Part shown: one piece after another, positions 22,033 to 26,304 of the stretch
Layout: every line of letters starts with the position of its first letter
Position numbering within the stretch: position 1 is the stretch's first letter
Origin: Halocatena pleomorpha
Lineage (GTDB): Archaea; Halobacteriota; Halobacteria; Halobacteriales; Haloarculaceae
Assembly (NCBI RefSeq): GCF_003862495.1
Contig: NZ_RRCH01000042.1
Span: 1 to 51,534, forward strand
DNA length: 51,534 nucleotides
Reading direction: 5' to 3'
Position numbers and translations under genes: made by a program
Notes under the pieces: model-generated
The model's database searches: none
Told to the model about the DNA's origin: nothing
Seen by the model: the letters and a program-made list of their open reading frames with translations, nothing else

Positions 22033-23295
22033 CTACCAGTGACTGTTATCAACGAACTGAGAGGGGGTGATAACGTCAACGTCCTTGTTGGCGACGTGAT
22101 CGATGACCTTCTTGAGGGCGTTTACCGGCAATCCCTCACCACCGATCTCGTGATAGTAGATGACAGCCAGTTGGTTGAATTCGGCAGCCATGTTAACGAT
22201 CTGGCGGGTACCACGGATAGACTCACCGTTCACACGGGAAATGAACGCGGGATTGCTGGGTCGGCGGGCGTTGTTCGGGCCGCCGCCCTGAAGATAGGCC
22301 GTTTTAAACAGCTCGTTAATATGCTTGAGACTCGCGCTGTTCACTCGATGGTATGGAACAATGAAATGTTCCGAGCCTCGTTTGAAACCCTTCACGTTGA
22401 GATAGCGTTTCGTTTCCTGGAGGATCCGTCGTTGTTTTTCAGAGGAGTATTTCGGGAGGAGTTCGCTAGCGTGGCCGACCATATCCCATCCGTTTTTGCC
22501 CATTTCGCGCATATTGGCCTCGGTGATGCGATCATCTCCGCCGACCGCGTCCGGGATGATGGCGACCGAACCCGTCCAATCTTTCTCTTTAAACAATGGA
22601 TACACCGTTTCGTAGGCGCTCACGTGTCCGTCGTCGAACTGGAACATCACCTTCCCCTTGTTCCCCTTGGGAACCTTCCGAAGATCGTCAATGAGCACTT
22701 CGAACGGCTTGTTCATCGGCCCGATCTGGAGGTTGATCTTCGCCACGTTACCCAACACTGGATTGCCTTGTTTGTCCGTGTAACCGAGATCGAACCGAAC
22801 CCACCCATTCAACTCCTTGGGAATATGGCGAGTCGCAGTGAGCATTGCACTTTGAGCCGGAGCAATGATCTCGGCCCGTATCTTGACGGTATCGGGCTTG
22901 TTCACTTTCGCCGCTAACGAAAGATCGTGGTTGCTCAGATCCAACGCCTCCGGGTAGAACGTGCGGGAAATCTTGGCAGTGGCCTGTTTTCCATTCTTCT
23001 TCGGCCGGAGTACGACCGACTGGTCGCCCTGAAACACGTCTTTCGTAGTGGTTGTTGGCTTACCGTACTGTACTTCCCACTGCGACGACATATTGTTGAA
23101 CTTATCAACTGATTTTCCAGAAGTGGAAATCCCATCGGGCGTGTCAGTATCGGTGGTAGAATTCGAGCTGTCGGTCGAATCGAGTAGATTCGACCCGTCC
23201 TTACCACCCAAGATCGATGAACAGCCGGCGAGTGACGCTGTTCCGATGGATCCGATTGCTGTGATGAACTTACGTCTATTTGAATAGTTTCTCAT
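22033..23295 (-). CDS. Tat-dependent lipoprotein with polysaccharide deacetylase-like domain
   Basis: 420 residues from MRNYSNRRKF. The twin-arginine signal ends in the lipobox SLAGC, so it is a lipid-anchored surface protein, followed by a Ser/Thr/Asp-rich linker. The N-terminal half is a beta-rich carbohydrate-binding-like domain; the C-terminal half has the polysaccharide deacetylase start FQFDDGHVSAYE, then VGHASELL and a C-terminal YYHEIG. The DDG motif is clear but the second His of the usual H-x-x-x-H pair is not, so activity is uncertain. Codons are visibly richer in AAA/AAT than neighbouring genes, hinting at transfer. Confidence 0.75.
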   Translation of the reverse strand: MRNYSNRRKFITAIGSIGTASLAGCSSILGGKDGSNLLDSTDSSNSTTDTDTPDGISTSGKSVDKFNNMSSQWEVQYGKPTTTTKDVFQGDQSVVLRPKKNGKQATAKISRTFYPEALDLSNHDLSLAAKVNKPDTVKIRAEIIAPAQSAMLTATRHIPKELNGWVRFDLGYTDKQGNPVLGNVAKINLQIGPMNKPFEVLIDDLRKVPKGNKGKVMFQFDDGHVSAYETVYPLFKEKDWTGSVAIIPDAVGGDDRITEANMREMGKNGWDMVGHASELLPKYSSEKQRRILQETKRYLNVKGFKRGSEHFIVPYHRVNSASLKHINELFKTAYLQGGGPNNARRPSNPAFISRVNGESIRGTRQIVNMAAEFNQLAVIYYHEIGGEGLPVNALKKVIDHVANKDVDVITPSQFVDNSHW

Positions 23296-23523
23296 ATCGG
23301 CAATGGAATCAAGAACTCCACGGATCATAATTATGTGGGTGATAGTTGGATAATATTGGTAAATATCTTCGTAAATTATGGTGTCAATTCAGAAATGGAC
23401 ATAGTATAATCATATACTGAATACCGTAACAGGATCAATAGCACTCAGTTGTGAGACGAATACAGGGAAAACACCGGACTGTCCACGGTTACAGTCGAAA
23501 AACGGACCGGGAGAGCACCGGCG

Positions 23524-24087
23524 TCAGTCGATCCGACATTCACGGGGGTCGCCAGCAAATCCGAGAAACAGGAGGAACAGGGCGATTCCAGCGACACGGA
23601 GCACGGTTTGCTGGAACGGAATGAACGACACCGCCCCTGTGAGACCGAAAATGGCAAAGAGACCAGGACCACAACTCGCACAGCCCGCAGCGAACAGTCC
23701 GGGAATAACGGCGCTGATGTTGGCAACGCTGCCCACCTGAAACATCCGCAGTTGTGCGACCATGTTCGTGATCGCGATCCCCGTCAACATCGCGTACGCG
23801 ACGTTCATCGCGATTGAGATGGTGCCGATCTGCTCGATGTTTATCAAGAAGATGCTTTTGAAATAATCGACAGTGACAAGCTGGGGATTGTTGAGGACCA
23901 TGTTGATCACACCCATCGACTGGGCGAACAGGACAAGCACGAAAAACGTGAGTCCAGCCACAACAGTCGTGAGTACAACTCGCCCCCCGGATAGAAACGG
24001 GTAGGAAAGCGCCGTCGACAACTCCTCACCGAATCGTTGGAGTCGGTTCGTGCCAGCTCGTGTGTACGTCCTGAAATCGCTACTCAT
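23524..24087 (-). CDS. Membrane protein with Cys-Ala-Ser-Cys motif
   Basis: 187 residues with about four to five membrane helices (VLTTVVAGLTFFVLVLFA, YFKSIFLINIEQIGTISIAM, NISAVIPGLFAAG, GLFAIFGLTGAVSF, VLRVAGIALFLLFLGFA). Between helices is GCASCGPGL, a CxxC pair at a membrane edge, and there is another Cys near the end (PRECRID). The start lies three bases after the stop of the DsbA-like lipoprotein gene, so the two are one transcription unit. A DsbB-like role in re-oxidising the partner is inferred from the pairing alone. No named family recognised. Confidence 0.75.
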   Translation of the reverse strand: MSSDFRTYTRAGTNRLQRFGEELSTALSYPFLSGGRVVLTTVVAGLTFFVLVLFAQSMGVINMVLNNPQLVTVDYFKSIFLINIEQIGTISIAMNVAYAMLTGIAITNMVAQLRMFQVGSVANISAVIPGLFAAGCASCGPGLFAIFGLTGAVSFIPFQQTVLRVAGIALFLLFLGFAGDPRECRID

Positions 24088-24090
24088 GGG

Positions 24091-24969
24091 TTATAGGTTG
24101 CGGTACGCATCGATCTGTTGTTTGAAGGTGGAGTACGGCTGCGCGCCGAAAAAGGAGGTGGTTTGGTCCGATCCCGAATGATACAGCACGAAGCCGGGGG
24201 TGTCCGAGAACCCCTCGTTTCGGGCGCGCTTTCGTTCTTGTTTGATCTTTGCTTCGTGTTGTTTGCGGTTCTGTTTCATACACTGATCGAGGGCATTGGC
24301 GTCAATCCCATCGATATCACGGGCGTAGCCCAGAAGGTTGCTCCGGGAGGACCACTCTCCGCCATCGAGTTGCTGATTCTCGAAGACGGTCCGGTGCCAC
24401 TCCCAGAAACGATCTGGACGATCGTCTTTCACGCGGTTCCAGAGACACGTAGCCATCACATCGGCCGTCCAAGAGTGGTCTCCGTAGTTCGGATAGTGAA
24501 GAAGGACGATCCGAGCTACCCCATCAGACACTTCGTTGCGGATGAGTTTCGGGAGCGCTCCGTTGTCCCCCATCTCGAACTGTTTACAATATGCACACTG
24601 GTAATCAGACCAGTAGTAGATGTCGACCGTCGGATCCGACGTGTTGGCTATGATGGGATTGCCCGCCAGCCCAATCCCGTAGCTCGTCGTTCCTGACTCC
24701 GAACGGAGCGGGGGCGAGACCGGTTCCGAAGGGGTCGAAGTGGTCGACGTCTCTGTCGACGTAGTCATCGGTGCGTCGTCGGATGGAGCAGTCTTCACTA
24801 CCTGTTCTGGGGTGTCCGTCTCCGGAGTTGCGCTTCTATCGTTCTGTGTCGTAGTAGGGGTCCCTGCGTCGTTGCCATCGCTTAAACACCCTGCAAGCCC
24901 GCCACAGACGCCGACGCCCACGCTCACAAGGAATCCTCGACGGTTCGTTAACGTTCCTTTCAAACTCAT
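24091..24969 (-). CDS. DsbA-like thioredoxin-fold lipoprotein
   Basis: 292 residues. Twin-Arg-type signal NRRGFLVSVGVGVCGG and lipobox GLAGC give a lipid-anchored surface protein; a long Thr/Ser-rich spacer runs to about residue 95. The thioredoxin-like domain starts GNPIIANTSDPTVDIYYWSDYQCAYC with active-site Cys125-A-Y-Cys128, followed by helical insertions (WEWHRTVFENQQ) and GFSDTPGFVLY with the cis-Pro loop (TPG). DsbA-family thiol oxidase or reductase of exported proteins. It is translated first in a two-gene operon with the CASC membrane protein (three bases between them). Confidence 0.88.
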   Translation of the reverse strand: MSLKGTLTNRRGFLVSVGVGVCGGLAGCLSDGNDAGTPTTTQNDRSATPETDTPEQVVKTAPSDDAPMTTSTETSTTSTPSEPVSPPLRSESGTTSYGIGLAGNPIIANTSDPTVDIYYWSDYQCAYCKQFEMGDNGALPKLIRNEVSDGVARIVLLHYPNYGDHSWTADVMATCLWNRVKDDRPDRFWEWHRTVFENQQLDGGEWSSRSNLLGYARDIDGIDANALDQCMKQNRKQHEAKIKQERKRARNEGFSDTPGFVLYHSGSDQTTSFFGAQPYSTFKQQIDAYRNL

Positions 24970-25225: not shown

Positions 25226-26119
25226 TTACTCAGCACGTTCGATCGGTGCGCGGATGGAGTTGCCCCACTCGGTCCACGACCCGTCGTAGTTTTCCACGTC
25301 GTCGAAGCCGAGCAGTTCAGTGAGGACGAACCACGCGATCGAAGAGCGTTCTCCAACCCGGCAGTACGTCACGACGGCTTGATCTTCGGTAACGTCGTGC
25401 TCTTCGTACAGTTGCTTGAGTTCTTCGGCGCTTTTGAACGTGCCGTCGTCGTCAAGCACCGACGCGGTTGGAACGTTACTTGCACCCGGAATGTGGCCGC
25501 CGCGTTGAGCGGTTTCTTGGAGACCCTCTGGTGCGATGATTTCTCCAGTGAACTCCTCGGGAGACCGAACGTCAACCATCGGAAGTCCGCTTTCTAAGGC
25601 TTGTTCGACATCCGCTCGATAAGCACGAATCCCCTCAAACGGACCGCGAGCAGTGTACTCCTGCGAAGAAAAATCAGTGGACTCCTCTGTGAGCTGGTAC
25701 TCGTTGTTAACCCAGTAGTCCTTGCCACCGTCGAGGACGCGAACGTCTTCGTGGCCGTAATATTTGAACTCCCAGTACGCAAACAGCGCAAACCAGTTCG
25801 GAATCCAACCGTTCCCGTAGAAGACGACCGTCGACTCCTCGGTGATCCCGGCCGCACCGACCGTCTCTTCGAATTCCGGTTTGTCGAGGATGTCTCGCTC
25901 GACTGCGTCGGAAAGATCCTCGTCCCACTGGAAACCGATCGCACCGGGAATATGGCCGTCCTCATACCGCGAAGGGAAGTCCTCTTCGGGCGACTCCGGA
26001 CTGTTTACCTCGACTAATCGCAGATCCGGCGCGTCCGTTTTGAATTCATCGAGACGATCTTCGACCCAGTCAGCTGACACCAACACGTCGTTGACGTAAT
26101 TGGAACTACTGGCACTCAT
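25226..26119 (-). CDS. Two-domain rhodanese (thiosulfate sulfurtransferase)
   Basis: 297 residues with tandem rhodanese folds. The second domain has the active Cys253 in TYCRVGERSS and the usual GHIPGASNVP and DVRSPEEF. The first domain has GHIPGAIGFQWDEDL but its active-site position reads FYGNGWIPNW with no Cys, so only one site is catalytic, as in classical TST enzymes. Transfers sulfane sulfur from thiosulfate or mercaptopyruvate to cyanide or thiols. The start at 26119 (MSASSSNYVND) is preferred: the 30-residue hydrophobic extension available upstream is not part of this family. Lies about 250 bases from the DsbA-like operon. Confidence 0.9.
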   Translation of the reverse strand: MSASSSNYVNDVLVSADWVEDRLDEFKTDAPDLRLVEVNSPESPEEDFPSRYEDGHIPGAIGFQWDEDLSDAVERDILDKPEFEETVGAAGITEESTVVFYGNGWIPNWFALFAYWEFKYYGHEDVRVLDGGKDYWVNNEYQLTEESTDFSSQEYTARGPFEGIRAYRADVEQALESGLPMVDVRSPEEFTGEIIAPEGLQETAQRGGHIPGASNVPTASVLDDDGTFKSAEELKQLYEEHDVTEDQAVVTYCRVGERSSIAWFVLTELLGFDDVENYDGSWTEWGNSIRAPIERAE

Positions 26120-26304
26120 AGACACGTGGTGTTCTCTGCCCACTGTAATGTATCTTCGTGACGCGTTCAATAGTATGGAAATAAATACACATAACACGAA
26201 TAAAAACAATCGAGATCTGGCGGATCTCCTCTAGGGTTGATTGTGGTGGTATTGCAGTGGTGTTCGACCGATTCGTTTTACACGATGCCTATCGTAGTGT
26301 AAGT

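Follow-up and report, generated by a model that had tools for sequence, protein, structure and literature searches.

The window analysed here, that is, the whole stretch of 51,534 nucleotides from Halocatena pleomorpha (contig NZ_RRCH01000042.1), carries a pair of adjoining genes on its minus strand. The first (24091-24969, ATG start, 292 aa) codes for a DsbA-like lipoprotein of the Thioredoxin_4 type that is predicted to be exported, and the downstream gene (23524-24087, ATG start, 187 aa) for a membrane protein with four predicted spans, hereafter MemP, whose family has no name. The open reading frame coordinates leave 3 bp between the two genes, as an earlier sequence-only reading of this DNA had it. 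That reading also remarked on a rhodanese gene close by; a two-domain rhodanese (PF00581, 6.5e-32) is indeed encoded on the minus strand upstream of the DsbA-like gene (25226-26209) and is linked to the pair within the genus, but a general rhodanese link of MemP was rejected, as the same rhodanese family occurs in only 6 of 112 MemP loci. The gene that follows MemP (22033-23328) codes for a lipoprotein of Tat type that includes a polysaccharide deacetylase domain, and a similar gene occupies this place in other members of the genus, where the window's relatives include Halocatena and Actinarchaeum.

The product of the first gene, which had been proposed to be an exported thiol protein with a C-A-Y-C motif, scored above the Pfam cut-offs for PF13462 (9.5e-12, 45.9 bits, cut-off 23.2) and PF01323 (6.3e-6, 26.5 bits, cut-off 25.6) and matched BdbD (3eu3, 2.7e-8), in agreement with a DsbA/thioredoxin fold. 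Its putative redox motif, Q-C-A-Y-C-K, lies at 24586-24597 on the minus strand, with C125 at 24595-24597 and C128 at 24586-24588, and T-P-G-F stands at the presumed cis-proline. Export is predicted from a Tat-type signal with a lipobox read directly from the sequence (24886-24969, minus strand; N-R-R-G-F, R10-R11...L-A-G-C28), for which the TIGR01409 TAT_signal model gave 13.4 bits, under its cut-off of 16.7. Like BdbD and the lipoproteins of NF041057 (Rcas_1661 lipoprotein), the protein combines a Thioredoxin_4 fold and a CxxC motif with predicted export as a lipoprotein, but it falls below the curated NF041057 cut-off (94 bits against 190, E 1e-26). All 98 DsbA-like partners that adjoin MemP carry R-R before the CxxC motif, 91 have Thr before the presumed cis-proline and 85 have CPFC, CAYC of the window being a minority form found in 3; a simple pattern detected a lipobox-like stretch in 20 of them.

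The window's MemP has no match in Pfam or NCBIfam, and a MemP profile search of the PDB returned none either; when 47 aligned members were compared with Pfam, DUF5676 was hit in 7 (best 4.7e-5) and the rest gave stray matches. The GCASCGPG segment that had been noticed in this multi-span protein proved to contain invariant cysteines: C136 (23680-23682) and C139 (23671-23673), which delimit the CASC motif at 23671-23682 on the minus strand within G-C-A-S-C-G-P-G, occur in every one of the 119 aligned sequences. The only other cysteine conserved in this alignment is C184 (23536-23538, minus strand) in G-D-P-R-x-C near the C-terminus, kept in 118 of 118. A structural model of MemP contains two half-helices (121-134 and 142-153), a break at CASCGPG between them (135-141) and a last helix (160-178), and a second model, built from a more typical member, shows the same layout and a likewise weak break; the CxxC region is of low confidence in both (pLDDT 47-59 by blocks, 55-57 at the break). 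Loop charges, counted as K+R/D+E per sequence over 114 sequences, amount to 2.04/0.11 for residues 112-122, 0.96/3.47 for residues 56-88 and 2.44/2.04 after residue 176. This bias suggests that both termini lie inside and loop 56-88 outside, and is the reason why C184 is predicted on the cytosolic side. Structure searches with the first model against the PDB (Foldseek, VIA-align) and with the second against the PDB and BFVD (Foldseek) returned background matches only, and the DsbB, VKOR, CcdA and MerT folds were not among the matches listed for either model, the CxxC region of which is low-confidence.

DsbB and VKOR are four-span partners of DsbA-type proteins, DsbB with two cysteine pairs on the outer face, while CcdA has a cysteine at a broken helix. 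By eye MemP had looked like neither DsbB nor VKOR, and profile methods agree: none of the 47 members matched PF02600 (DsbB), PF07884 (VKOR) or PF02683 (CcdA/DsbD), and hhalign scores against DsbB (15.8), VKOR (15.2) and three CcdA sets (14.6-21.7 overall, 14.6-16.1 for the main MemP subfamily) were at background. For comparison, the two MemP subfamilies scored 94.9 with each other and 11-22 against DsbB, VKOR, the CcdA sets and unrelated membrane families taken as controls. We therefore rejected membership of MemP in any of the three families. MemP shares four spans with DsbB and VKOR but, on the predicted topology, has neither DsbB-type outer cysteine pairs nor any conserved cysteine in its outer loops. 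With CcdA/DsbD it shares a place beside a thioredoxin-fold protein and cysteine at a helix break, but differs by its four predicted spans and by its CxxC motif combined with a C-terminal cysteine.

A MemP match was found in 128 of 391 genomes of the class. We fetched 120 loci, comprising matches to about E 1e-15 and three weaker ones and thus part of all matches in these genomes, and counted the 112 that contain a clear main-subfamily MemP. Excluded were L149, L150 and L151, with broken or partial frames (DsbA-like sequence adjoins the first two, none L151), the distant L153, L154 and L156 (a DsbA-like gene adjoins all three), and L152 and L155, in which no frame was found. Contig C1 has one and the same length (3,915,224) in the species-level genomes G002 and G003, and its identical MemP locus was counted once. 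In 98 of the 112 loci the distance from MemP to a DsbA-like gene is at most 500 bp (71 on the same strand, 27 on the opposite strand) and in a further 10 it is at most 3.1 kb, while the fetched stretches of the remaining 4 contain none; searching these four genomes whole placed a DsbA-like gene at 4.6, 6.1 and 7.3 kb in three of them and at over 1 Mb in G035, whose sole DsbA-like gene of this type has no MemP beside it. Among 43 non-redundant loci, defined as less than 72% identical rather than by a tree, 42 have a DsbA-like neighbour (36 same strand, 6 opposite) and 1 has none. A second collection of 76 named loci, which overlaps the first, gave a DsbA-like gene within 500 bp in 68, at 2.1-2.3 kb in 6 and none in the stretch in 2. 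The distant second MemP subfamily has, at 15 of 16 loci, a DsbA-like gene of another type immediately upstream. The survey of gene neighbourhoods that had been proposed as a check on the pair thus returned a near-constant DsbA-like neighbour. Linkage between the two genes is strong, and the invariance of C136, C139 and C184 together with recurrence in 98/112 and 42/43 loci makes the pairing more than chance.

Looking from the other side, we used a DsbA-like partner from another genus as query against 59 genomes. Matches with E<1e-40 occurred in 13 genomes, which coincide exactly with those that have a main-subfamily MemP, and one more, partial match (2.2e-25) was found in G053. MemP, its second subfamily or a further family, MemP2 (see below), lies within 1.5 kb of 17 of the 24 DsbA places found in this test, and the other 7 are without one; in the window's own genome (G000), 3 of 6 DsbA-like paralogues have no MemP-type neighbour (L322, L323 and L324, on contigs C6, C56 and C61). 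MemP thus implies this DsbA type, though additional DsbA copies may occur by themselves.

At 77 of the 112 loci MemP is accompanied by MemP2, a second unnamed membrane family (for example L106:4672-5181), usually as its immediate neighbour. MemP2 has a CxxC at the C-terminus and the motif G-C-P-x-C-N at a broken helix, and its profile scores 28-36 against that of MemP, which is above the controls but weak. Its relatives amount to 67 records, archaeal ones included, the bacterial ones residing on plasmids of, among others, Rhodococcus, Streptomyces and Arthrobacter; outside haloarchaea, Actinomycetota (among them Rubrobacter), Alphaproteobacteria and Thermomicrobium have relatives. The idea of a separate DsbA partner in haloarchaea consequently stands as a gene linkage but not as something limited to haloarchaea. 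One MemP relative from outside the class and within the same phylum (G671, L292:4026-4553) carries C-P-I-C-T; its short contig also encodes an 89-aa C-x-x-C protein and has ORFs for HTH-type regulators nearby.

A profile built from 13 of the bacterial MemP2 relatives and one protein from outside the class scored 213.9 against MemP2, 56.5 against MemP and 49.9 against a MerT profile, the last made from 6 sequences of which 4 are close. As controls, reversed targets gave 24.2 for MemP and 20.1 for MerT, and forty column shuffles per profile pair did not exceed 18.5 and 20.1, respectively. The pooled family scored 41.1 against MerT and at most 19.6 against 13 other profiles. Haloarchaeal MemP compared directly with MerT reached only 15.8, which is background, and for this reason the MemP-MerT relation rests on a transitive chain. 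In the alignment, the cysteine helix of the MemP relatives, the next helix and the C-terminal cysteine correspond to residues 12-80 of MerT. The bacterial relatives also gave a sub-threshold MerT signal in Pfam and NCBIfam (best 9.5e-5), PF02411 appearing in 4 of 10 at 9e-4 to 0.018, each under the cut-off. PF02411 had no match in the 47 haloarchaeal members; the vicinal CC of MerT is absent from MemP, which has CxxC in 119 of 119 sequences; and of 97 haloarchaeal genomes searched for MerT, 18 had places that scored below threshold, all of them distinct from the MemP places. When a bacterial relative was used in tblastn (E up to 10), no MerT annotation appeared among the best 60 of 63 records. 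Two stretches of pMOL28 that we inspected were without mer genes, and a further stretch had them. Judging from these profile scores, the bacterial relatives probably share ancestry with MerT, and the same scores suggest, by transitivity only, a MerT ancestry for MemP itself, which we do not place as a MerT member because it stays under the MerT cut-off and lacks the CC motif. Placement of MemP in a known family of transporters unconnected with thiol genes would have contradicted the sequence-only reading; what emerged is a remote link to MerT, yet a strong linkage to thiol genes.

Within 4 kb of MemP, raw counts over the 112 loci were 77 for MemP2, 58 for DUF7521, 57 for a winged-helix regulator, 34 for a small S-L-C-C membrane protein, 25 for DUF302, 15 for rhodanese-MBL, 14 for SCO1, 13 each for TusA and TauE, and 9 for a TlpA-like protein. 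Thioredoxin was present in 37/112 loci (5/43 non-redundant, raw counts) and CcdA-like proteins in 17/112, as two families (10 and 7). At least one sulfur-handling gene (DUF302, rhodanese-MBL, TusA, TauE or YgaP-like) was found in 46/112 loci and 11/43 non-redundant ones (raw counts), the searched sulfur genes being absent within 4 kb at the other 32 of 43. A scan of the 20 neighbour families met most often showed no mer family. At the second complete MemP copy of the window's genome, rhodanese-MBL, DUF302 and SCO1 genes adjoin. The S-L-C-C protein (70-110 aa; L075:2821-3060 and 33 other MemP loci) reaches no cut-off in Pfam or NCBIfam, and a 79-aa representative compared with MerT scored 19.9, which is background. 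One CcdA-like protein of about 310 aa, missed by Pfam, is encoded directly downstream of MemP at L141:2878-3834 and 10 further loci, Halococcus and Halobacterium types being among them.

At 13 bacterial plasmid loci, the gene next to the MemP relative codes for DsbA, a thioredoxin-domain protein, TlpA or CcdA in 6 (Arthrobacter D5-1, Arthrobacter pA58H2, Streptomyces, Pseudonocardia, Azospirillum and Mycolicibacterium), DsbA lies about 3 kb away in 2 (Tabrizicola and Gemmobacter), and the stretch contains no such thiol gene in 5 (Rhodococcus oxybenzonivorans, Rubrobacter, Thermomicrobium, Sinorhizobium and Rhodococcus erythropolis). Rhodanese, TauE, DsrE, DUF302 or TusA-type genes occur at 5/13 of these loci, CcdA within two genes of the relative at 4/13, and CsoR-type regulators or copper genes at part of them. 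The cysteine after the last helix is missing in 4/13 relatives (Tabrizicola, Thermomicrobium, Sinorhizobium and Gemmobacter). A CYT module of Arthrobacter is described in PMC6305408 as comprising five proteins, a regulator, two CcdA, DsbA and DsrE, with a proposed role in sulfur oxidation. Like the window's locus, it pairs a relative of MemP with an adjoining DsbA-type gene: the pA58H2 record contains one annotated CcdA, a DsrE and, next to the DsbA-type gene, this relative, annotated as a hypothetical protein, against the two CcdA counted in the paper, so that one of the two is probably the MemP relative.

In the mercury system, as outlined in PMC5715351, MerP with its CxxC outside the cell hands mercury to a cysteine pair in the first helix of MerT, from where it goes to a cysteine pair at the cytoplasmic face and then to MerA. 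MemP would repeat this layout with its intramembrane cysteine pair, the helix that follows, a cytoplasmic-face cysteine and an outside partner bearing CxxC, but has CxxC in place of CC, two extra N-terminal spans, a single C-terminal cysteine and a DsbA-like protein in the place of MerP. Because MemP and its DsbA-like neighbour repeat the MerT layout, we regard a cysteine-to-cysteine relay as the most likely reading, and give nearly an even chance to the view that the two proteins form a dedicated MerT-type relay across the membrane, with a load moving inward. The Tat-exported DsbA-like protein would exchange through its CxxC, outside the cell, with C136/C139 in the broken third helix of MemP, and the load would be handed on to C184 at the cytosolic face and from there to cytosolic thiols. 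This load would be carried on thiols, sulfane sulfur being the first candidate because of the neighbour genes and a soft metal the second. The relay builds on gene pairing, co-occurrence, fixed cysteines and the transitive similarity to MerT as observations; the topology, contact between the two proteins, the direction of transfer and the kind of load are inferred. Somewhat more tentatively, a cross-domain family related to MerT and paired with DsbA-type proteins may serve as a general thiol relay for sulfane sulfur, a soft metal or reducing power, distinct from DsbB/VKOR and from CcdA, and carried by several haloarchaea without DsbB or VKOR.

The recurrence of thioredoxin, TlpA and CcdA genes near MemP makes an electron conduit of the CcdA/DsbD kind the strongest rival of the relay. 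Electrons would then pass from cytosolic thioredoxin to C184, to C136/C139 and to the DsbA-like protein, and exported substrates would be reduced. The SCO1 genes, the CcdA genes close to bacterial relatives, the broken helix with cysteine that MemP has in common with CcdA, and the apparent counting of a MemP relative as CcdA in PMC6305408 are all consistent with this scheme. Nonetheless we consider it unlikely, though worth keeping in view, as MemP has no profile similarity to any CcdA set, a conduit would be redundant wherever a true CcdA is present, and most non-redundant loci have neither thioredoxin nor CcdA nearby.

Re-oxidation of the DsbA-like protein by MemP, with electrons delivered to quinone or another acceptor as by DsbB or VKOR but in an unrelated protein, appears still less probable. 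Among 97 genomes, DsbB was found in 41, VKOR in 18 and a DsbD-type protein over cut-off in 18. DsbB is rarer in genomes with MemP (4/20 against 37/77 others, Fisher p 0.04), 8 of the 20 lack both DsbB and VKOR, and the Thr before the presumed cis-proline in most partners would also fit an oxidase; VKOR, on the other hand, is commoner with MemP (8/20 against 10/77, p 0.01) and the presence of either shows no difference (p 0.80), all three tests ignoring ancestry. Together with background profile scores against DsbB and VKOR and a C184 predicted inside, the outer loops, predicted to hold no conserved cysteine, make a DsbB-like oxidase less likely than either relay or conduit. The two genes might also be mere neighbours on accessory islands or plasmids, with no joint function. 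Many MemP loci do lie on plasmids or secondary contigs and some DsbA-like copies stand alone, but same- and opposite-strand arrangements are both kept over the 43 diverged loci, presence and absence of the two genes agree in 59 of 59 genomes (E<1e-40), and the diverged second subfamily keeps the pairing, which leaves this explanation very improbable.

Thiol chemistry outside the cytoplasm has seldom been described in haloarchaea, and in the open-licence full-text literature, which excludes most subscription journals, we found no publication on this gene pair in haloarchaea. If the relay is real, a large class of DsbA-like proteins now regarded as orphans would gain a candidate partner in the membrane, and mercury-type transport helices would become connected with DsbA-type proteins. 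A remnant of MemP comprising its last 33 residues was also detected on contig C12 of G000 (L281:12445-12543), in an island that encodes a DUF411 protein, a multicopper oxidase, a DUF302 protein, a VKOR-SPW fusion and an ArsP-type permease.
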